From positions 1 to 32,577 of the forward strand of contig JAOAFQ010000162.1 in the NCBI GenBank assembly GCA_026416195.1: a stretch of DNA of 32,577 nucleotides. Reading direction: 5' to 3'. Positions 2,025 to 30,973 of this stretch are shown piece after piece. The stretch's first letter is position 1; every line of letters starts with the position of its first letter. Made by a program: the position numbers and the translations under genes. The stretch is from Candidatus Aminicenantota bacterium (GTDB lineage Bacteria > Acidobacteriota > Aminicenantia > Aminicenantales > CALLJL01). The notes below the pieces were generated by a model. That model ran no database searches. It was not told where the DNA came from and was given only the letters and a program-made list of their open reading frames with translations.

Positions 2025-2777
2025 TTAACCATAACGGCCGGTAATATAGTCTTCTGTTCGCTTATCAGCTGGAGCGGTAAATATTTGATGAGTCTCGCCA
2101 AACTCAATTAACTCGCCCAATAAAAAATAACCAGTAAAATCAGAAACGCGGGCAGCTTGTTGCATATTATGAGTTACAATCACGATAGTATATTTCTTTT
2201 TTAATTCAAACATTAATTCTTCAATCCTCGCTGTAGCTATTGGATCTAAAGCAGAACAAGGTTCGTCCATCAAGAGGATTTCAGGTTCAACGGCCAGCGC
2301 CCGAGCCAAACATAATCGTTGCTGTTGTTCCAGGGATAGAGTAAGGGCGTTTTTCCTTAACTGATTTTTTAACTGAGGCCATAACTGAACTGCTTCAAGG
2401 CTTTTAATCAGTCTCTCTTCCATTATCTTAGGATCATTTATCCTATGAACTTTTAGCCCATAAAGAATATTATCCTCAATGCTTAGAGGAAAGGGATTAG
2501 GACGCTGAAAAACCATTCCAACCCTTCTTCTAAGTTCTAAAAGATCAACCTTTTCTTCATAAATATTGAGGCCATCGATAAAAACTTCACCAACTACTCT
2601 GGCCTCATCAATGAGATCATTCATTCGATTTAAACAGCGAAGAAAAGTCGTTTTCCCACAGCCTGAAGGCCCAATAAGAGCGGATATTTTCTGCCTTTCT
2701 ATTTTTATATTAATATTTTTTAGAGCTTGAAAAGAACCATAAAATACAGAAAGGTTTTTAACTTCTATAGAAATCAT
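2025..2777 (-). CDS. pstB: Phosphate ABC transporter ATPase, second PstB (degenerate signature motif)
   Basis: This 250-residue protein would energise phosphate import with PstC/PstA. It is PstB-like throughout: aromatic A-loop Tyr13, Walker A GPSGCGKT (36-43), Q-loop [12 protein letters not shown] with Gln91, Walker B LLMDEP (Glu172), D-loop SALDP, H-loop [13 protein letters not shown] with His203, and C-terminal DYITGRYG. The ABC signature is abnormal: LSLEQQQRL (147-155) instead of LSGGQQQRL. The codons read CTG GAA where two glycine codons are expected, so it is not a single-base error. The gene starts 3 bases after the upstream pstB stop. In a heterodimer its intact Walker/Q/H elements would face the intact LSGGQ of the partner. 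Confidence 0.93.
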
Positions 2778-2780
2778 GGT

Positions 2781-3542
2781 TTAACCAAAGCGACCAGAAA
2801 TATAATCGTTAGTTCTTTTATCCTGAGGAGCGGTAAAAATCCGATCAGTTCGATCAATTTCAATCAGCTCACCAGAAAGAAAAAAGGCGGTTCGATCAGA
2901 AACTCGAGCTGCTTGTTTAGTATTATTGGTGACCAAAATAATGGTGTATTCTTTTTTTAAATCCATCAACGATTCCTCAATTTTCATCGTTGAGACTGGA
3001 TCCAGTCCGGAGCAGGGCTCATCTAACAGAATGAATTCAGGCCGCATCGCTAGAACTCGAGCAATGCAGAGTCGTTGCTGCTGACCACCTGAAAGCTTAA
3101 GAGCACTTGAATTGAGTCTCTCTTTAACCTCATCCCAGAGGGCTACTTTCTTCAAAGAATCAATTACTCTTTCTTCTATTAATTTTTTGTCTTTGATTCC
3201 AGCCATCCTCAAACCAAAGGCCACATTTTCAAAAATAGAGCGCGGCAAGGGAACAGGCAACGCAAAGACCATCCCCACTTTTCTTCTTAGCTCAGTCAGA
3301 CTAACTTCAGGAGAATAAATATTATGGCCATTGATTTCAATCGTCCCGCTTATTCTTGCCTCAGCTCTAATTTCATTCAGCCGATTAAGACAACGAAGAA
3401 AACTAGATTTGCCGCTTCCGGCCGGACCGATGATGCTTAGGATTTCATGCCGAAAAACGTCAAGAGTAATTTTTTTTAGAATCGGCTGGGAGCCGAGATA
3501 ATAGCTGAAGTCTCTCACCCGAATAACTATTTCTCTTTCCAT
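2781..3542 (-). CDS. pstB: Phosphate ABC transporter ATPase, first PstB (degenerate Q-loop and H-loop)
   Basis: A 253-residue PstB homologue with A-loop tyrosines 14-15, Walker A GPAGSGKS (39-46), canonical signature LSGGQQQRL (150-158), Walker B ILLDEP (Glu175), D-loop SGLDP and the PstB tail DYISGRFG. Two nucleotide-contact positions have changed. The Q-loop reads VGMVFALPVPLP, with Ala94 replacing the glutamine. The switch motif reads VTNNTKQAARVSD, with Asn206 replacing the histidine. Its start codon overlaps the pstA stop (TAATG), indicating translational coupling. The frame is intact and the rest of the fold conserved, so it looks like a specialised subunit rather than a decaying copy. 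It complements the signature-degenerate partner downstream. Confidence 0.93.
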   Translation of the reverse strand: MEREIVIRVRDFSYYLGSQPILKKITLDVFRHEILSIIGPAGSGKSSFLRCLNRLNEIRAEARISGTIEINGHNIYSPEVSLTELRRKVGMVFALPVPLPRSIFENVAFGLRMAGIKDKKLIEERVIDSLKKVALWDEVKERLNSSALKLSGGQQQRLCIARVLAMRPEFILLDEPCSGLDPVSTMKIEESLMDLKKEYTIILVTNNTKQAARVSDRTAFFLSGELIEIDRTDRIFTAPQDKRTNDYISGRFG

Positions 3543-4384
3543 TAACTATATTTTCTTAAAAACCTATTCATTAAATAATAAGTAAAAATGTTAACTGAAA
3601 GAATCGAAATCAGGAGAACAGCTGCCGTTCCATACGCTTTAGATAAGGAAATGCCTTCTCTGGCTAAAATATAAAAATGCACAGACATAGTGCGGGTAGA
3701 AGAAAAAAGAGAGTCGGGGATTCTAAGGGCAGAACCGGCTGTAAAAATAACAGCGGCAGTCTCGCCAATACTCCGACCGATGCTCAGAATAACCCCAGTA
3801 GCTATACCTGGCAGAGCTGAAGGAAGAACTACCCGGCTAACCGTTTGCCATTTAGTTCCACCCAAGGAGAAACTCACCTCCCGATAAGCTTGAGGGACAA
3901 ACTTAATAGCTTCCTCACTTGTGCGAATGATGGTGGGTAAAATCATAAAGGCGAGGGTTAAACTACCACTTAATATCGACCAACCAAATTTAAGCTTGGT
4001 GACAAAAAGGATAAAACCAAAAAGGCCAAAAATGATGGAAGGAATTCCCGCCAAACACTCGGAACCAAACCGGATTATTCGAGTAAGGCGGCCCTCAGGG
4101 GTATACTCAGTCAGGAAAATTGCTGTACCCACTCCCAGTGGAGTAGCTAAAGTTAAGGCCAGAATGATTAGAACAATTGTCCCTATTATTGTTGAAAAAA
4201 TACCTCCTTCTTTCCCCATTTCCCTAGGATTTCGAACTAAGAATTCCCAACTTAAAACAGGTAAGCCATGACGAAGAATAAAAAAGATAATAAAAGCCAA
4301 AATGAAGATGCTTAAGGCAGTAAGAAACAAAAGGAGCAAACGAACAATTGCTTGCTCTTGCCTAGGGGTTAGGGGCCACCTCAT
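3542..4384 (-). CDS. pstA: Phosphate ABC transporter permease PstA
   Basis: The 280-residue integral membrane protein has about six hydrophobic segments. It carries the PstA/PstC-type coupling region: EAIKFVPQAYREVSFSLGGTKWQ followed by VVLPSALPGIATGVILSIGRSIGETAAVIF. The GTAIFLTEY and GIPSIIFGLFG motifs are also typical of PstA. It would form the phosphate channel with PstC in the inner membrane and contact the PstB ATPases through its cytoplasmic coupling helix. Its start overlaps the pstC stop (ATGA) and its stop overlaps the first pstB start, so the cistrons are tightly coupled. The final hydrophobic segment ends with a short RFLRKYS tail. Confidence 0.93.
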   Translation of the reverse strand: MRWPLTPRQEQAIVRLLLLFLTALSIFILAFIIFFILRHGLPVLSWEFLVRNPREMGKEGGIFSTIIGTIVLIILALTLATPLGVGTAIFLTEYTPEGRLTRIIRFGSECLAGIPSIIFGLFGFILFVTKLKFGWSILSGSLTLAFMILPTIIRTSEEAIKFVPQAYREVSFSLGGTKWQTVSRVVLPSALPGIATGVILSIGRSIGETAAVIFTAGSALRIPDSLFSSTRTMSVHFYILAREGISLSKAYGTAAVLLISILSVNIFTYYLMNRFLRKYS

Positions 4385-5238
4385 GACGCCATCCTTTTTG
4401 AAGTTAGATTCGCCATCGTATTAAGAATCATAATAATGATGAAAAGAATCACGCCTGTGGCGAAAAGAGCTTGACGATGCTCGCCGCTCACATAGCCCAT
4501 TTCTAAAGCAATATTCGAAGTCAAAGTTCTAACTGGATCAAGAATGGACCGGGGCAAGGCAGTAGCATTGCCAGCAATCATAATCACTGCCATGGTCTCG
4601 CCCACAGCTCGGCCTAAGCCCAAAATTAGACTGGCAATAATACCTGATCTGGCTGCAGGCAAAAGGACCATCCGCACAGTCTGCCATTGGGTAGCCCCTA
4701 AAGCAATGGAACCTTCTCGATAAGAAGGAGGTAAGGCCATTAAAGAATCGATGGATATACTCAAGATGGTGGGTAAAATCATAATGCCCAAAATGATAGA
4801 GGCTGTGAAAACAGAGAAACCTGGGCCACCAAAGTTCTCCCGAACAAAGGGTACAAGAATAACCACGCCAATAAAACCATAAACAACAGAAGGAATGCCG
4901 GCTAGAAGCTCAATCATCGGCTTAACCAAATTCCTAACTTTTTTTGAACTAAATTGGGTTAAATAAATAGCTCCAGCTAAACCAAGTGGAACCCCAATAA
5001 CCATCGCGCCAGCCGTTACTAAAAGAGAGCCAATAATCATTGGTAGAAGACCAAAATAGCCTTCACTGGGATACCAATCGAGGCTAAAGAGAAACTTTTT
5101 GAAACCATGGCGGAACATGATGGGCAAGCCTTCAGTAAAAATAAAAATGGAGATTAAAGCTAAGATAGAAATAGCTGAAAGGGCAATGGTCAGAAGAAAT
5201 AGCTGAATAAGCTTTTCACGATTTTCTTTCCCTCGCAT
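4381..5238 (-). CDS. pstC: Phosphate ABC transporter permease PstC
   Basis: The 285-residue permease has an N-terminal TM (about 11-33) and five further hydrophobic segments. The coupling region DSLMALPPSYREGSIALGATQW is followed by VLLPAARSGIIASLILGLGRAVGETMAVIMIAGN, characteristic of PstC. The GIPSVVYGFIGV motif is also present. It pairs with PstA to form the membrane pore of the phosphate importer. A Shine-Dalgarno-like AAGGAAG lies at the end of pstS, about 11 bases before the ATG; the gap to pstS is 6 bases and the pstA start overlaps its stop. Length is slightly short for PstC (about 300-320) because the N-terminal cytoplasmic extension is small. Confidence 0.93.
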   Translation of the reverse strand: MRGKENREKLIQLFLLTIALSAISILALISIFIFTEGLPIMFRHGFKKFLFSLDWYPSEGYFGLLPMIIGSLLVTAGAMVIGVPLGLAGAIYLTQFSSKKVRNLVKPMIELLAGIPSVVYGFIGVVILVPFVRENFGGPGFSVFTASIILGIMILPTILSISIDSLMALPPSYREGSIALGATQWQTVRMVLLPAARSGIIASLILGLGRAVGETMAVIMIAGNATALPRSILDPVRTLTSNIALEMGYVSGEHRQALFATGVILFIIIMILNTMANLTSKRMAS

Positions 5239-5244
5239 GGTTAT

Positions 5245-6108
5245 TTATTCTTCCTTACTTTGGCCTTTTTTTACTAACCTAGCGGGAATAAGGCCCTGCT
5301 TTTGAATTAAATTTTGACCTTCTTCTGAAAGAATAAATTGGATGAAATCCTGAACAATTCCATGAGGAACGCTATTGGTCACTAAAATGAATGGTCTAAC
5401 CAAACGATATTTTTTTTCGACGATATTTTCGACTGAAGGCTCGAGACCATCAAGTCTAATAGCTTTTACCCTTCCTTCTACCAGGCCAAGGGAAATATAG
5501 CCAATCGCATAAGGATCATTAGCCACCACTTCTCGAACCGTCCCATTTGAGTCCTGAACAATCGCCTTTTTGGTAATTCGCCTTTGACCCATGACCATTT
5601 CTTGAAAGGCCACGCGAGTCCCAGAACCCTCTTCGCGAGTAACCACATGAATGGTCTTGGCGAATCCACCCACTTCTTTCCAACTAATAATCTCACCAGC
5701 AAAAATTTTTCTTACTTCTTCTAAGGACAAATTATCAACTGGATTAGAAGGATGAACAATAATAACCAAACCATCCCAGGCGACGATAAATTCAGTTAGA
5801 ACTTTTTCCTCTGGCTTAAGCTCGCGGGAACTCATTCCGATTTGAGATGCTCCAGTTATTGCTGCTTGGACACCAGCACTCGAACCACCACCTTGCACAT
5901 TAACGACTTTTTCAGGAAACCGGGACATAAAAACTTCAGCCCATTGATCAGCAAAGGGCTGAATACTAGTTGACCCAGCAATGGTGATTCCTTTCTGGGC
6001 TGGTTTAAGATAACAAGAAAGACAAAGAATAGAAAAGTAAACAACAAAAGAAATTCCAAACAGGAAAAATTGGGCCTTCTTTTTTAATTTTGAATCATTG
6101 ATAATCAT
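5245..6108 (-). CDS. pstS: Phosphate-binding lipoprotein PstS
   Basis: The 287-residue substrate-binding protein begins with a signal peptide and the lipobox LCLSC, suggesting a lipid anchor on the outer face of the inner membrane. Phosphate-binding signatures are visible: ITIAGSTSIQPFADQWAE, VQGGGSSAGVQAAITGASQIGMSSRE and the loop TREEGSGTRVAF, all typical of PBP-like PstS. It would deliver phosphate to PstC/PstA. It is the first gene of the five-gene operon. No Shine-Dalgarno sequence precedes the ATG (upstream is A-rich), but a candidate promoter sits 30-50 bases upstream, overlapping the end of the ABC-F gene. I see no pho-box-like direct repeat and no phoU in the window. Confidence 0.93.
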   Translation of the reverse strand: MIINDSKLKKKAQFFLFGISFVVYFSILCLSCYLKPAQKGITIAGSTSIQPFADQWAEVFMSRFPEKVVNVQGGGSSAGVQAAITGASQIGMSSRELKPEEKVLTEFIVAWDGLVIIVHPSNPVDNLSLEEVRKIFAGEIISWKEVGGFAKTIHVVTREEGSGTRVAFQEMVMGQRRITKKAIVQDSNGTVREVVANDPYAIGYISLGLVEGRVKAIRLDGLEPSVENIVEKKYRLVRPFILVTNSVPHGIVQDFIQFILSEEGQNLIQKQGLIPARLVKKGQSKEE

Positions 6109-20548: not shown

Positions 20549-20980
20549 TTGTGTCGGTTAGTTCATTTCTTTTTTCCCTTCTATTTAATCTTCATCAACC
20601 TAACTTCAAGAAATATAGAAAAAGCTTTTCTTCAAAGTAATGCAGCCCTCTTGGCTTCTCTTTGCCCAACTAAAGGAGTTATTCAAGTTTCTCTCCCTGA
20701 GCCAATTAATTTCTCTGATATCCTTGCCCCCGGACAAATAAAAGTTTTTTTTGAGCGAATCTTCCACCGTTACTCCACCTTTGAATTTTTTATAGAGTCA
20801 CCTTTGTCGATCTCACCTGATAATCAGCGATGGTTTATTCGAGCCCGTTGGTCATTTTTTGAAAAAAAGAATCTTCAACAACAAGCCTTCCGAATCTATT
20901 TTCAGGTTAAGCGGGAGACAAAGATTAAAAAGAGAGGCCTTGAATGGACAATAATCGAAATCCGGGCCGAAAAAATTTAA
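20549..20980 (+). CDS. Small exported protein, DUF4783/NTF2-like (tentative)
   Basis: A 143-residue protein with probable TTG start; a purine-rich GGAGAGAAG lies 8-15 bases upstream and no ATG/GTG option exists. Residues 1-20 form a hydrophobic signal-like segment (VHFFFPFYLIFINL). The mature part reads LQSNAALLASLCPTKGVIQVSLPEP and then PGQIKVFFERIFHRYSTFEFFI and RWFIRARWSF. This is the helix-then-curved-sheet pattern of NTF2-like DUF4783 proteins; the match is by eye and tentative. It lies 40 bases after the RHH gene and its last 37 bases overlap the histidine kinase start in another frame, so the two are likely coupled. It could be a periplasmic partner of the kinase. Confidence 0.6.
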   Translation: MCRLVHFFFPFYLIFINLTSRNIEKAFLQSNAALLASLCPTKGVIQVSLPEPINFSDILAPGQIKVFFERIFHRYSTFEFFIESPLSISPDNQRWFIRARWSFFEKKNLQQQAFRIYFQVKRETKIKKRGLEWTIIEIRAEKI

Positions 20981-23900
20981 TTCTTTGGGTGATTTCTGGG
21001 CTCGTCTTAACTGCCGGATTATCTTTTTTAACCTCACTATTTATTCCTAGCTGGCTTTTCAATGATCGAGCTTCAGTCCCCATTGACGAACTTCGCCAAC
21101 AGGAAAGGTCAATAAAAGCTCAATTTGAAGGCTTGCTCTATAATCTAAAGCAAAGAGGGACCAATTTGGTTGCTTCTTTAAATGAAGAAAAGGCCAACCT
21201 CTCTGATATCCTTTTTTCCTTGAAGCTTGATCCTGAAGTCGAAGGCGTAGCTTACTTAAAAGATAAAAACATGATCTTCTGGAGAGGGCAGGTAGTCCCT
21301 CCTTCTCTCTTGCCTCCAGCCGATGGTCTTTCTCACGTTATCCGCTATAAAGCCAATGTTTTCCTTGTCATTGTTTATCCTGTCCGAGAAAAAGATAAAC
21401 TAGCTCTTACTCGCCTTCTTTCTTTTCAGCCTCCGTTAGCCACTCCTTTCCTTCATCCTATTTCCTTTCTCCAGGGTAAGGTTTTACGCAATGCCCTTAT
21501 CGATTATTATAGTGACGAGGAAGATGTCACTGGATTTGAAAGAATTTTCGCTCGGCATCAAGATGAATATATCAGTCAACCAAGATCAAAAGGCGATATC
21601 TTGACTATATTTTTCCCCCTGAGAAATGAAGCCCAGAGAATCGTGGCCACAGTTAATTTGAGGTCAGTCAATCCTGCCTTTCGCCTTAGCCACCAGAGGG
21701 CGAATTGGCAGCTAATCGGCTGGATTAACCTTCTTTTGGCCCTCATAGGCATAAGTCTGATAAGTTTCATTGCCTGGAAAAAAACCAAATTTTTCTCCCT
21801 TTATAAATTGTCTATTTTTCTGGTCAATCTTATTCTTATCCGCTTAGTTCTCCTAAGGCTTGAGGCTTTGATTGATCCGAAGGGTCCTTTATTTTCTCCA
21901 GGTTTGGCTTGCTTGCCTTTTTATGGTCGTCTGCTCTCTTCCCCTCTTAATCTTTTTTTTACCTCAGCTCTAATTTTAGCTCTTCTTTTCTCATTTCTTT
22001 ACGATCGACGGAGTTGGCTTCTATCTAAACCAACTGGGAAAGTCTCTGCTTTTAAGAGGGCTTTAGCCTTCTTCCTTATAATTATTTCAATTCTGCCCTT
22101 GTTTGTTTTTTATCAATTTTCTTTGTCTTTAATTCTTAATAGTAATCTCCATTTCATCCGCTTTTCACCATTCTGGCCGACCCTTTTAACTCTTTTTACT
22201 TTAAGCTTTTTTTTCTTGACCTGCCTTTTTCTAAGCTGGCTCTTGGTTAGTTTAGCTCGACGGCTTCAATCTGGCTACTTTAATCTTTGGCTTGTTCTCC
22301 TGTCTTGGGCCGTTTTTCTTCTTTGTTTGCATTTTACGAGTGAGCCGATATCAAGGCTTAGAATGCTAATTTTGTCCGTGGCCGCAACCTGCATCTGGCT
22401 ATTTATTTTCAGGCCTCTTTTTCAGACAAGAGCTCTTGTGCGGCTAGCTTTCTTGGCCTTAGCTGTAGCCTTTTTCTATTTAGTCCTTGCTTCAGGTATC
22501 CTAATTAAAGAAAAAGTCTTAACTGAAAGTTATCTCTTTGAGGCCCTTCTTTCCCTTGAAAATTGGGCTGAATATTTCCTCCGAGAATCACTCCCAGCTA
22601 TTAACCAGGAAGCAATTTCTATTATCAATTGTCTGGAAGCAAAAAAACAAAGTGATTTGGCTCCATATCTTTGGAAAAAGACCTCATTAGCCCGATGGAA
22701 TTGGTATTCAAGCCTGGAAATAAGTCTTCCCGATGGCCAAATAATTTCTCGTTATTCCCTTAATTTGCCTTTCTTTACCCCTAATCTGTTAACTTTAGAA
22801 CCGAGTAATGACTGGGCCCTTCTTCGGGCATCTTTACCACTACCCGGAAAGGAAGCCGATTTTCTAATTGCCTACCGAGATTTTGCCAAAAACAACGTCC
22901 CCCTTGGGCGCTTAACCCTGTATGTTCTTTTGAATGAAGAAATGTTGCCCTTTCTTTATTCAGCTATTCCCTATTTTGACTTGCTTCGTTTCCCTTCTGT
23001 TCCTTCCTTAAAAGAGTTTAATTTCTCGTTGGCTATTTTTAAAGCTAATGGCGAAATTATTTTTAATCCAGCGGGGTTAACGACTGGTCTTGCTCTTCCT
23101 ATTTTAGAACAGCTTAACCAAAATCCTGAAAACCCTTTATGGGCTAAGTTTTATAATCGAGAGCGACTTTTTCGAGCTTTTTATTTTCGCCATGGCCAAA
23201 AAATTGTGGCCATTCTCTGGCCATCGCCAGGTTTTATTTCCATGACAGTAAGCTACCTTAAATTTCTGTTTTTTTGGACTGGGCTAATTTATCTTCCTCT
23301 TTTTTTAATTGACATAATTTCTGGTCGCCGTCGCTTGGCTTCCCTTTTTTGGGCGTTTTCGAGCCGCGTCTATGCTTCTTTCGTCGCCATCCTTCTTATC
23401 CTTCTCGTCCCCTTTACCCTACTTATCAATAATTTCTTTACTCGTCTAGCAAATGAACGTTTCAGCGAGAAAGCTGAGATTCAGGCCCACGTAGCTCGGA
23501 ATATTATTGAGGATTTCCTCTTTTTCCAAGAAGAGCAAGAGGCAACCTTTTCAGTTCAAGAGTTAGTTCACTGGGTTAGTACGGCTATTAATAATGATGT
23601 CAACGTTTATCAAGATGGGGCTTTAGTCGCTTCAAGTCGACAGGAATTTTTTGACTCTGGCCTTTTGCCTGATTATCTTGAGGGAGAGATTGCCTATCGC
23701 CTAAAAGAAAAGAAGCAACCCTATGTGGTGTGGAGAAAACGTCTAGGTGAATATTCCTTTCAAACCCTAACTATTCCTCTTCATCTTGACAGTATTAGTC
23801 TCTTTATAACCTTATCTTTTCCCTTTGAGCGAGAAGAAATTGGTCGGGTTCAGGAACAGCTTTATGAGTTCTTGATTTTTATGGCTGCTCTTTCTCTTAT

Positions 23901-24789
23901 TCTCATTTTCCTTTTCGCTCGCAGCATCGGTGCTCTTGTTATTAACCCCGTTAGGAAACTGATTTTTGCGACTAAAGAAATTAGTTCAGGTAATCTCGAC
24001 GTTTTTATTGACCATAGAGGACACGATGAAATGCAAACTCTTGTTGAAGGATTCAATCGGATGGTTCAAAGTCTTAAGAAACATGAAAGGGAATTAGCTG
24101 AAATGAGCAAAAAGGCAGCTTGGGCGGAAATGGCTCGGAAAATTGCCCATGAGGTCAAAAATCCCTTAACGCCTATCCGTCTCTCCGCTGAACATCTCCT
24201 TCATGTTTATGATGAAAGACCAGAGGAAATTGGAATAGCCTTAAAAGAATCAGTAACTTACATCATTAACGAAGTAGAAAACTTAAGACGTTTAGCCCAG
24301 AACTTCTTAGCTTTTTCTAGAGAAGCCCCTCTTCAAATTAGCCGGTTCAACCTTAAAGAATTACTACTGGAGACCGTTTTTCCCTATCAACGCCTCCTTT
24401 CTAGCCGTCTTAATTTTGAATTAGAATTACCTGAGAAACTAGTTATCTTAGGTGATCGGGAAAAACTTAAAATTGCCATTCGTAATCTCTTGGTTAATGC
24501 CATCGAAGCTATTAAAGGAAAAGGCGAAATTAAAATTAGGGCACGGAGAGAAGGCTCTCAGGTGACGGTGGATATAATTGATAGCGGCGAAGGGATGGAT
24601 GAGGCTACTTTAAGTCGCATCTTTGAACCTGATTTTTCGACTAAAGACCTGGGCACAGGTTTAGGCTTGCCTATTGCCAAAAAAATAATTGAAGATCATG
24701 GCGGCAAGATTAGTTTAATAAGTTCTCCGGGAAAAGGGACGACGGTTAGCCTCATCCTGCCTGCAGGTAATGATTTCCTAGAGCAATAA
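20944..24789 (+). CDS. Large 12-TM NtrY-like sensor histidine kinase
   Basis: A 1281-residue kinase, far longer than NtrY (about 750). Hydrophobic segments lie near residues 12-34, 254-279, 285-310, 336-353, 372-397, 409-438, 446-465, 472-490, 497-520, 766-792, 809-833 and 976-998. Their parity places three large loops (35-253, 521-765, 834-975) outside and the C-terminus inside. Then come HAMP (about 995-1045), a HisKA H-box AEMARKIAHEVKNPLTPIRLSAEHL with His1069, an N-box NLLVNAIEAI, and G-boxes DSGEGMD and GTGLGLPIAKKI. It would autophosphorylate His1069 in response to an envelope signal. No response regulator lies in the window, so its partner is unknown. AGAGAGG lies about 7 bases before the ATG. 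Confidence 0.92.
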   Translation: MDNNRNPGRKNLILWVISGLVLTAGLSFLTSLFIPSWLFNDRASVPIDELRQQERSIKAQFEGLLYNLKQRGTNLVASLNEEKANLSDILFSLKLDPEVEGVAYLKDKNMIFWRGQVVPPSLLPPADGLSHVIRYKANVFLVIVYPVREKDKLALTRLLSFQPPLATPFLHPISFLQGKVLRNALIDYYSDEEDVTGFERIFARHQDEYISQPRSKGDILTIFFPLRNEAQRIVATVNLRSVNPAFRLSHQRANWQLIGWINLLLALIGISLISFIAWKKTKFFSLYKLSIFLVNLILIRLVLLRLEALIDPKGPLFSPGLACLPFYGRLLSSPLNLFFTSALILALLFSFLYDRRSWLLSKPTGKVSAFKRALAFFLIIISILPLFVFYQFSLSLILNSNLHFIRFSPFWPTLLTLFTLSFFFLTCLFLSWLLVSLARRLQSGYFNLWLVLLSWAVFLLCLHFTSEPISRLRMLILSVAATCIWLFIFRPLFQTRALVRLAFLALAVAFFYLVLASGILIKEKVLTESYLFEALLSLENWAEYFLRESLPAINQEAISIINCLEAKKQSDLAPYLWKKTSLARWNWYSSLEISLPDGQIISRYSLNLPFFTPNLLTLEPSNDWALLRASLPLPGKEADFLIAYRDFAKNNVPLGRLTLYVLLNEEMLPFLYSAIPYFDLLRFPSVPSLKEFNFSLAIFKANGEIIFNPAGLTTGLALPILEQLNQNPENPLWAKFYNRERLFRAFYFRHGQKIVAILWPSPGFISMTVSYLKFLFFWTGLIYLPLFLIDIISGRRRLASLFWAFSSRVYASFVAILLILLVPFTLLINNFFTRLANERFSEKAEIQAHVARNIIEDFLFFQEEQEATFSVQELVHWVSTAINNDVNVYQDGALVASSRQEFFDSGLLPDYLEGEIAYRLKEKKQPYVVWRKRLGEYSFQTLTIPLHLDSISLFITLSFPFEREEIGRVQEQLYEFLIFMAALSLILIFLFARSIGALVINPVRKLIFATKEISSGNLDVFIDHRGHDEMQTLVEGFNRMVQSLKKHERELAEMSKKAAWAEMARKIAHEVKNPLTPIRLSAEHLLHVYDERPEEIGIALKESVTYIINEVENLRRLAQNFLAFSREAPLQISRFNLKELLLETVFPYQRLLSSRLNFELELPEKLVILGDREKLKIAIRNLLVNAIEAIKGKGEIKIRARREGSQVTVDIIDSGEGMDEATLSRIFEPDFSTKDLGTGLGLPIAKKIIEDHGGKISLISSPGKGTTVSLILPAGNDFLEQ

Positions 24790-29144: not shown

Positions 29145-29909
29145 ATGTTGTTGACAGTAGCTGGTTTTGATCCATCGGGTGGAGCCGGCCTAATTCTAGA
29201 TCTTCAGGTCTTTCGCTCCCTTGGTTTTCAAGGGACAGCTGTAGTTACTGCCTTGACAAGTCAAAATATTCAAAGGGTCTTTGAAGTAAAAGCCCTTCCA
29301 CCTTCCTTTGTTCGCTCGCAGTATCAGGCTTTAAAAAAAGACTTTTCCTGGGAAGGGATGAAAGTTGGCTTAATTGGCAATCGCTCACTTCTTCCAATTA
29401 TCAAAGAGATTTTGGAAGAATTGGCCAATCGGCCTAGGGTAATAGATCCTATTTTCCAAGCAAGCTCAGGCGCCTGCTTTCTTGACCCCAAAGCCATTCC
29501 TGATTTTTTAAAAACGATTGCCGAACGGGCTTCGGTCATTACCCCTAATCTTCACGAGGCCTCAACAATTACTGGATTAAAAATAAAAACAGTGGAAGAT
29601 ATGGAGAAAGCGGCCAAAAGAATCTATGAAATGACTGGACTCCCCTGCCTGCTAAAAGGAGGGCATAGACCTGGCCGAATTTTCGATCTTCTTTATACTG
29701 AGAGAAAAGTTAGGATTTTCGAAAGTCCACGGCAAGCTATAAAAGTTCATGGAACAGGTTGTTTTCTTTCAGCTTCTCTTCTGGCCTACCTAGTCTTAAA
29801 GAAGGATCTAGAAAAAGCCTGCGCCGCTGCTCTCCTTTTTACTCAAAAGGCTATAAAAAAAGCTATCAAACCTCATCGTGGGCGAGCTTTCTTTTCTTTC
29901 CTAAATTAA
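29145..29909 (+). CDS. thiD: Hydroxymethylpyrimidine/phosphomethylpyrimidine kinase-like protein
   Basis: A 254-residue ribokinase-fold enzyme. The N-terminus TVAGFDPSGGAGLILDLQVF, the central VIDPIFQASSG, ITPNLHEASTITG, LLKGGH, and the anion-hole motif GTGCFLSASLLAYL are ThiD-like. It would phosphorylate HMP and HMP-P in thiamine synthesis or salvage. No other thi genes are nearby and I see no TPP riboswitch in the 53 bases upstream, so a salvage role, or a related pyridoxal kinase role, is possible. No clear Shine-Dalgarno sequence precedes the ATG. The stop overlaps the end of the convergent substrate-binding protein gene by 4 bases. Confidence 0.87.
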   Translation: MLLTVAGFDPSGGAGLILDLQVFRSLGFQGTAVVTALTSQNIQRVFEVKALPPSFVRSQYQALKKDFSWEGMKVGLIGNRSLLPIIKEILEELANRPRVIDPIFQASSGACFLDPKAIPDFLKTIAERASVITPNLHEASTITGLKIKTVEDMEKAAKRIYEMTGLPCLLKGGHRPGRIFDLLYTERKVRIFESPRQAIKVHGTGCFLSASLLAYLVLKKDLEKACAAALLFTQKAIKKAIKPHRGRAFFSFLN

Positions 29910-30937
29910 AATTTTCCCTCTTTGTTCACCTCTGTTATAATTTCATCTGCCCGCTTTAAAATTTCAGGCGAAAAGGATATCCCCTGTTTCTTAGCAGCTA
30001 GAAGATTAAGGTGCAACTTTATTTCTTGAGGATAAATAAAGGGAATTTGGGCTGGATTCTCGCCCTTTTTTATCCTCTCCACCAGTTTCCCAGCTTCATA
30101 GCCCATGGCAAAAAAATCTAAACCGAGAGCAGCGCAAGCCCCAGCTCGAGCGGCTAGAAGAAAACTTCCAAAAAGGGGAATCATGGTCTCCTCAGCTACC
30201 CGAGCTACAGAATCAAAGGCAGCATTGATCGTATTATCAGAAATAGGAAAAAAACAATCAATTTTTTTGGCAGCAAGAATTTGAGCGCTAATCAGAACAT
30301 CCTGAGATGAGCTGACAGGGACCGCCACTATCTCAAGACCTAGTTCAATCGCTGCCTCTCGGGCTAACTGAAAATAATATTCTGAGTTCAATTCTGATGG
30401 TGTCCAAAGAGTTCCAACTCTTCGAGCCGTTGGCAAAACCTCTTTAATAAAAGCTAGAACTTGAGCAATTGGGCCAGTCGAAGTTACTCCAGTTACGTTG
30501 GGCAAATGATCATTGGTCGTTCGGCCAGCGTTCACCAAGAAGGGATTAGCGACCGCCATGAAAATTATGGGAATGCGGCGAGTGGCCATAATCGCTGCTT
30601 GCAGGCAAGGGGTTGAGTGGGCCACGATTAAATCTTTTTTTTCTCGCGAATATTCCTCCGCAATCTCCTGAACCTTCTGAATCTCCCCTAAGGCATTTCT
30701 CACCTCAATCTCCACAAAATCGCTTGGCCAGAGACCACTGTCCTGAAGAGCCTGGAAGAAACCTCGTTTGGCTTCATTGGCTGTAATCGAATCGATGAGT
30801 TGGAAATAGCCAATCCTATAGACCTTACCTTCAGATTCGGTTTGGCAAGACAGAAGAAAAAAGAAAGAAAAGAGCGGAATCAAAATGAAAATCAAAATTA
30901 AAAAAAATCGTCGCCATCTAAACCAACCTAATTGCAT
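29906..30937 (-). CDS. ABC_sub_bind (PF04392-type) substrate-binding lipoprotein
   Basis: The protein has a signal peptide ending in the lipobox FLLSC, so it is probably a lipoprotein. Its body matches the ABC_sub_bind family of periplasmic binding proteins: YRIGYFQLIDS, DLIVAHSTPCLQAAI, IPIIFMAVANPF, NVTGVTS, RRVGTLWTPSELNSEYYF, IPLFGSF and ALGLDFFAMGYEAGKL. Related proteins (TrpX type) bind aromatic amino acids; the ligand here is unknown. The usual neighbouring permease and ATPase genes are absent. The ORF track uses GTG 30949; I prefer ATG 30937 (MQLGWFRWRR, a normal n-region), but neither has a good ribosome site. It lies 36 bases after the threonine dehydratase-like gene (24 bases if GTG is used), probably co-transcribed. 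Confidence 0.85.
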   Translation of the reverse strand: MQLGWFRWRRFFLILIFILIPLFSFFFLLSCQTESEGKVYRIGYFQLIDSITANEAKRGFFQALQDSGLWPSDFVEIEVRNALGEIQKVQEIAEEYSREKKDLIVAHSTPCLQAAIMATRRIPIIFMAVANPFLVNAGRTTNDHLPNVTGVTSTGPIAQVLAFIKEVLPTARRVGTLWTPSELNSEYYFQLAREAAIELGLEIVAVPVSSSQDVLISAQILAAKKIDCFFPISDNTINAAFDSVARVAEETMIPLFGSFLLAARAGACAALGLDFFAMGYEAGKLVERIKKGENPAQIPFIYPQEIKLHLNLLAAKKQGISFSPEILKRADEIITEVNKEGKF

Positions 30938-30973
30938 TGGAAAAAACACTTAAACAAAGTCCCAGTTCATTGG

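Follow-up and report, generated by a model that had tools for sequence, protein, structure and literature searches.

In a 32,577-nucleotide stretch of Candidatus Aminicenantota DNA (contig JAOAFQ010000162.1; hereafter, the window), a phosphate importer operon, pstSCA-pstB1-pstB2, encodes two distinct copies of the ATPase subunit PstB, each of which supplies the ATP-site motifs that the other has lost. PstB is a dimeric nucleotide-binding domain (PMC5775613), and in an ATP-binding cassette (ABC) dimer each ATP site takes its catalytic half from one subunit and its signature from the partner (PMC3434365, PMC4459825). The motif pattern and its recurrence in relatives make it very probable that an ancient, obligate PstB1-PstB2 heterodimer powers the PstSCA importer, with one catalytic and one degenerate site and with the Walker B glutamates kept.

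The five genes are tightly packed on the minus strand (window positions 2025-6108) in the order pstS-C-A-B1-B2. PstB1 and PstB2, which share 54% identity, are PstB family members by family score, PstB2 lying above the TIGR00972 cut-off and PstB1 exactly at it, and pstS, pstC and pstA are encoded alongside them. The genes and the motif positions within the two PstBs are as follows.

5245-6108, minus strand: pstS, phosphate-binding protein, first gene of the operon (TIGR02136, 240 bits; cut-off 206.6)
4381-5238, minus strand: pstC, permease subunit (TIGR02138, 299.9 bits; cut-off 196.45)
3542-4384, minus strand: pstA, permease subunit (TIGR00974, 281.2 bits; cut-off 193.45)
2781-3542, minus strand: pstB1, PstB degenerate on the Walker side (TIGR00972, 343.2 bits; cut-off 343.2)
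3261-3263, minus strand: PstB1 Q-loop, VFALP, in which Ala94 (codon GCG) replaces Gln
3081-3095, minus strand: PstB1 signature, LSGGQ, intact (residues 150-154)
2925-2927, minus strand: PstB1 H-loop, VTNN, in which Asn206 (codon AAT) replaces His
2025-2777, minus strand: pstB2, PstB degenerate in the signature (TIGR00972, 377.9 bits; cut-off 343.2)
2505-2507, minus strand: PstB2 Q-loop, VFQRP, Gln91 intact
2325-2339, minus strand: PstB2 signature, LSLEQ, degenerate (residues 147-151)
2169-2171, minus strand: PstB2 H-loop, VTHN, His203 intact

These open reading frames, coordinates and residues agree with the original prediction, as does the retention of Walker A, the Walker B Asp-Glu pair and the D-loop in both proteins: PstB1 has Walker A GPAGSGKS (residues 39-46), Walker B Glu175 and D-loop SGLD, and PstB2 has GPSGCGKT (residues 36-43), Glu172 and SALD. 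The canonical PstSCAB importer (E. coli; PDB 9k3x, 9k3y and 9k3s, with PstB chains) has the same operon parts and a PstB of the same family, but is served by a PstB homodimer, in which one protein supplies two consensus sites. Judged by sequence, neither PstB1 nor PstB2 could do so, as a homodimer of PstB1 would be missing Gln and His at each of its sites, and one of PstB2 would carry Glu in both signatures. Neither homodimer would contain a consensus site, and the PstB1-PstB2 heterodimer would contain exactly one.

PstB1, used as the query against GTDB species genomes, returned five loci from other lineages with the same pair, in records whose titles include Omnitrophica WOR_2 and Elusimicrobia; phylum names of relatives are those of the record titles throughout. 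Within the window’s phylum, a protein search of 297 genomes yielded 15 tandem pairs (L063-L077) that were not selected by motif, all of the split type. DNA patterns for the PstB1 motif VTNNxKQA and the PstB2 motif [E/D]QQQR matched in 26 and 18 genomes of this phylum, respectively. An adjoining PstB2 was found for 25 of the 26 PstB1 genes, the remaining one being cut by a contig end, and an adjoining PstB1 for all 18 PstB2 genes. Four genomes whose PstB1 had escaped its own pattern were added by the PstB2 pattern, and PstB1 there again carries Ala and Asn. Two pattern matches, L107 and L137, proved not to be PstB and were discarded. The PstB1 pattern was also present in 75/193 genomes of the phylum to which locus L032 belongs, in 48/130 of that of L034 and in 9/10 of that of L031. 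Among the pairs read in this survey, no PstB1 locus with room for a neighbour had a neighbouring PstB with an intact signature.

This sampling gave 91 distinct full-length pairs (87 adjacent and 4 unlinked), drawn from the window’s phylum, the Omnitrophica- and Elusimicrobia-labelled phyla and one fourth phylum. Mean pairwise protein divergence is ~40%, and the split is identical in 91/91 pairs, with all losses in one composite site and the other site consensus. In the motif table, which has 92 rows per type as the window is counted twice, the Q-loop residue of PstB1 is Ala in 85 rows, Ser in 5, Thr in 1 and Glu in 1, and every row has the H-loop Asn, a Ser-Gly-Gly-Gln signature and a D-loop Gly in place of Ala. 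The fourth Walker A glycine of PstB1, retained in the window (3405-3428 region), is lost in 75 of the 92 rows and in most relatives replaced by Asn, Arg, Lys, Ser or Gln, but the Walker A Lys is always kept. PstB2 keeps the Q-loop Gln, the H-loop His and the fourth glycine and Lys of Walker A without exception (92/92 each), and its signature position 4, canonically Gly, is Glu in 83 rows and Asp in 9. Walker B Asp-Glu is retained in all 184 rows of the two types. In 35 other full-length PstBs, including both copies of Firmicute-like tandem pairs, Gln, His and the signature glycine are intact.

The split is therefore far beyond chance and no local accident, and the substitutions are not scattered at random between copies, the outcome that the original prediction had named as refuting it. 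Its description of the motifs is sharpened by the alignment: the residues stand as given, with two refinements, namely that most relatives have also lost the fourth Walker A glycine of PstB1 and that the fixed change in PstB2 is Gly to Glu or Asp at signature position 4. An artefact of sequencing or assembly might be suspected in a draft assembly of 235 contigs, but is refuted: a genome of the same genus, at 86% identity, shows the pattern unchanged, and so do dozens of assemblies made independently. The original prediction had likewise considered sequencing error unlikely. As read from these sequences, four or more distant groups of bacteria share this split, with dozens of carriers in all, many of them without another PstB. 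At Walker A position 4, PstB1 carries Arg or Lys only alongside PstB2 ‘GE’ signatures (10/10), in members of the window’s phylum only; this may be a replacement contact within the degenerate site, or a lineage effect.

Differentially fixed columns were located with respect to the two halves of the domain. Four columns fixed in canonical PstBs are replaced in PstB2 (131, 136, 149 and 150 of PstB2), each within the helical half that holds the signature. In PstB1 11 are replaced, ten of them outside that half, near Walker A and the Q-, D- and H-loops (Fisher p 0.004; 0.014 without the two ascertainment columns). This is the pattern expected if the composite site formed by the catalytic half of PstB1 and the signature of PstB2 had been freed of the usual constraint and the other site held. 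In a tree from which all motif columns had been removed, PstB1 and PstB2 each form one clade, with Shimodaira-Hasegawa-like approximate likelihood ratio test support of 99 each, and each type requires a single change, versus 36 in shuffles. The PstB1 and PstB2 distance matrices correlate with r 0.89 (best of 500 permutations, 0.08), and an approximately unbiased test (p 0.46) neither shows nor rejects a common tandem origin of the two.

Several observations weigh against an obligate heterodimer with one degenerate site. Two of the motif columns were partly selected, the H-loop Asn through the search pattern and the PstB2 Glu/Asp through the class call, the other columns being free. The Walker B Glu is kept in 92/92 rows of both types, unlike in most degenerate sites. 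An AlphaFold model of a read-through fusion folded both domains (predicted local distance difference test score 86.7) but left their arrangement open (predicted template modelling score 0.52), and was not used for pairing. Lastly, the window’s own genome has a canonical third PstB, on contig C79 (L053, 1-3209), after the end of a pstA and before phoB-phoR.

A further canonical pstB that serves this transporter was also among the outcomes that the prediction had named as refuting it; a canonical gene does exist, but it is placed in a pstA/phoBR context of its own. The pstA tail on C79 was recognised by alignment to the PstA of L032, with the portion upstream of it absent from the assembly, and by this gene context the C79 PstB is part of a different pst operon, truncated where the contig stops. 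Moreover, PstB1 and PstB2 are the only PstBs found in 46/65 genomes of other lineages (22/36 and 24/29). Many of the 65 are incomplete metagenome-assembled genomes, but systematic loss of a third PstB is unlikely given the agreement across genomes, so there is no general need for a third PstB. The C79 copy also lends some colour to the proposal that PstB1 is a duplicate in decay, about to become a pseudogene, with the canonical PstB doing the work. We regard this as very improbable, because both pstB1 and pstB2 are under purifying selection: the ratio of nonsynonymous to synonymous substitution rates is 0.03 for PstB1 and 0.035 for PstB2 between the window and its same-genus relative, where synonymous sites are saturated, and 0.02-0.31 across 11 other comparisons. 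Decay is also at odds with a pattern that extends over several phyla, often as the sole PstB, and with a canonical copy that has its own pstA end and phoBR. A further pst-like operon lies on contig C127 of the window’s genome (L054, 4868-8601), its PstB having the signature LSLGQ and the H-loop VTHI; this divergent type is also found in the Flavobacteriia loci L047 and L048.

In four Elusimicrobia genomes (L227-L230), PstB1 closes a pstSCA-pstB1 operon and PstB2 is encoded elsewhere, followed directly by phoU. The unlinked PstB2 still has the signature LTLEQ, the split is kept, and no other PstB was found in these four genomes. Co-occurrence of PstB1 and PstB2 thus holds for linked and unlinked genes, and complementarity that persists when the genes are unlinked is explained by joint function rather than by neighbourhood. 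Together, the 91/91 split, the 46/65 pair-only genomes and the unlinked pairs support the obligate heterodimer with unequal sites that had been predicted. In the Elusimicrobia assembly G572, two pstB2 copies were found on different contigs (L231 and L232), representing either duplication or mixed strains.

Alternatively, PstB1 and PstB2 could each pair with itself and the two homodimers could divide the work, for example into transport versus PhoU/PhoR signalling, as PhoU is reported to bind PstB (PMC5775613) and phoU directly follows pstB2 in several genomes (locus L032 has the order phoBR-pstSCA-B1-B2-phoU). Tandem pstB genes are indeed known in Firmicutes, as originally noted, and the pst operon of E. 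faecalis likewise contains adjacent pstB1 and pstB2, whose PstB2 in excess suffices alone, replacing PstB1 (PMC12096839). However, both E. faecalis copies are motif-intact (PMC12096839), as are the tandem pairs of L036 and L037, whereas the window’s PstB1 and PstB2 do not both keep Q-loop, signature and H-loop and so are not a tandem pair of the Firmicute type. Either homodimer would also repeat its defects in both of its sites, the pair-only genomes have nothing else to turn to among the PstBs found, and separate roles do not predict complementary changes site by site. Separate homodimers are accordingly improbable.

In the heterodimer that we favor, the subunits would be arranged head to tail, such that Walker A, the Q-loop, Walker B and the H-loop of PstB2 together with the LSGGQ of PstB1 form the consensus site, which would hydrolyze ATP. 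The Walker side of PstB1 (Ala94 and Asn206) and the LSLEQ of PstB2 would form the degenerate site, probably a nucleotide-holding or empty hinge at which hydrolysis is slow or nil. Each transport cycle would then involve one hydrolytic event, at the consensus site, and thus about one ATP. From the sequences, their conservation, co-occurrence and phylogeny, we infer this dimer composition, the unequal hydrolysis and the ATP cost. Consistent with impairment, ABC proteins mutated at this signature glycine, such as LSGDQ variants, TAP and CFTR G551D, are reported to be defective in ATP hydrolysis or function (PMC4459825).

It is also conceivable that the heterodimer is real but that both sites hydrolyze ATP, the changes serving to tune rate or coupling. 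In every PstB1 row, Walker A retains its Lys and Walker B its Asp/Glu, and MRP1 with an H-loop Asn in its active site retained transport (PMC7756269). In contrast, the Q-loop Gln, H-loop His and signature Gly of one site are lost jointly in 91/91 pairs, the Glu/Asp of PstB2 occupies a position at which Asp is detrimental to hydrolysis in other ABC proteins (PMC4459825), and the degenerate site of Pdr5 has the similar signature LNVEQ (PMC7756269). Two fully active sites are therefore unlikely, although the degenerate site, unusually, retains its Walker B Glu and may have residual hydrolytic activity. On balance we lean towards a broader picture of the PstB1-PstB2 heterodimer, in which an ancient Pst branch spanning several phyla, and often the sole Pst, couples one hydrolyzing site to a glutamate-keeping hinge at about one ATP per cycle, and in which this asymmetry could shape PhoU/PhoR signalling.

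For exporters, degenerate sites are the subject of a review (PMC7756269), and they have also been noted in two fused importers, RbsA and NupO (PMC11466899). In heterodimeric or full-length exporters such as TM287/288, TAP, CFTR and Pdr5, losses are also confined to one composite site (PMC7756269), and the degenerate site of Pdr5, with a Tyr H-loop and LNVEQ, is close to the Asn and LSLEQ found here (PMC7756269). The likeness to asymmetric exporters drawn in the original prediction holds insofar as all losses fall in one site (91/91), but does not extend to membership of that group: these proteins are exporters or a channel whose degenerate site is usually without the catalytic Glu, and the PstB1/PstB2 system, in which this Walker B Glu has not been replaced, stands apart from those type IV exporters that have a degenerate site, such as TM287/288 and TAP. 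RbsA and NupO are bacterial type II importers that also have one degenerate ATP site (PMC11466899), but are fused chains for sugars or nucleosides in which Walker A or Walker B is lost, whereas here separate PstBs serve a type I phosphate importer. No description of such a split in a Pst importer was found in the open-access literature, in line with the earlier statement that none was known.

Work on degenerate ATP sites has so far centred on exporters and CFTR, and the reason for their existence is debated. PstB1/PstB2 would offer a simple system, a two-gene type I importer with motifs that are split cleanly and have long been kept, in which mutations in a single gene can address either site and the homodimers serve as controls. 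Many genomes annotated with ‘two PstB copies’ would have one asymmetric motor rather than redundancy, and lineages with PstB1/PstB2 may spend a different amount of ATP on high-affinity phosphate uptake.

Other features of the window were recorded alongside the pst operon. Genes for a DUF4097 (LiaG-like) protein and a DUF3014 protein follow it on the same strand (346-1967). A PF04392 ABC-transporter substrate-binding protein is encoded at 29906-30949, and no permease gene was recognised near it within the window. Positions 20944-24789 encode a histidine kinase of 1281 residues (HisKA, HAMP, HATPase_c), whose hydrophobic N-terminal part is very long.
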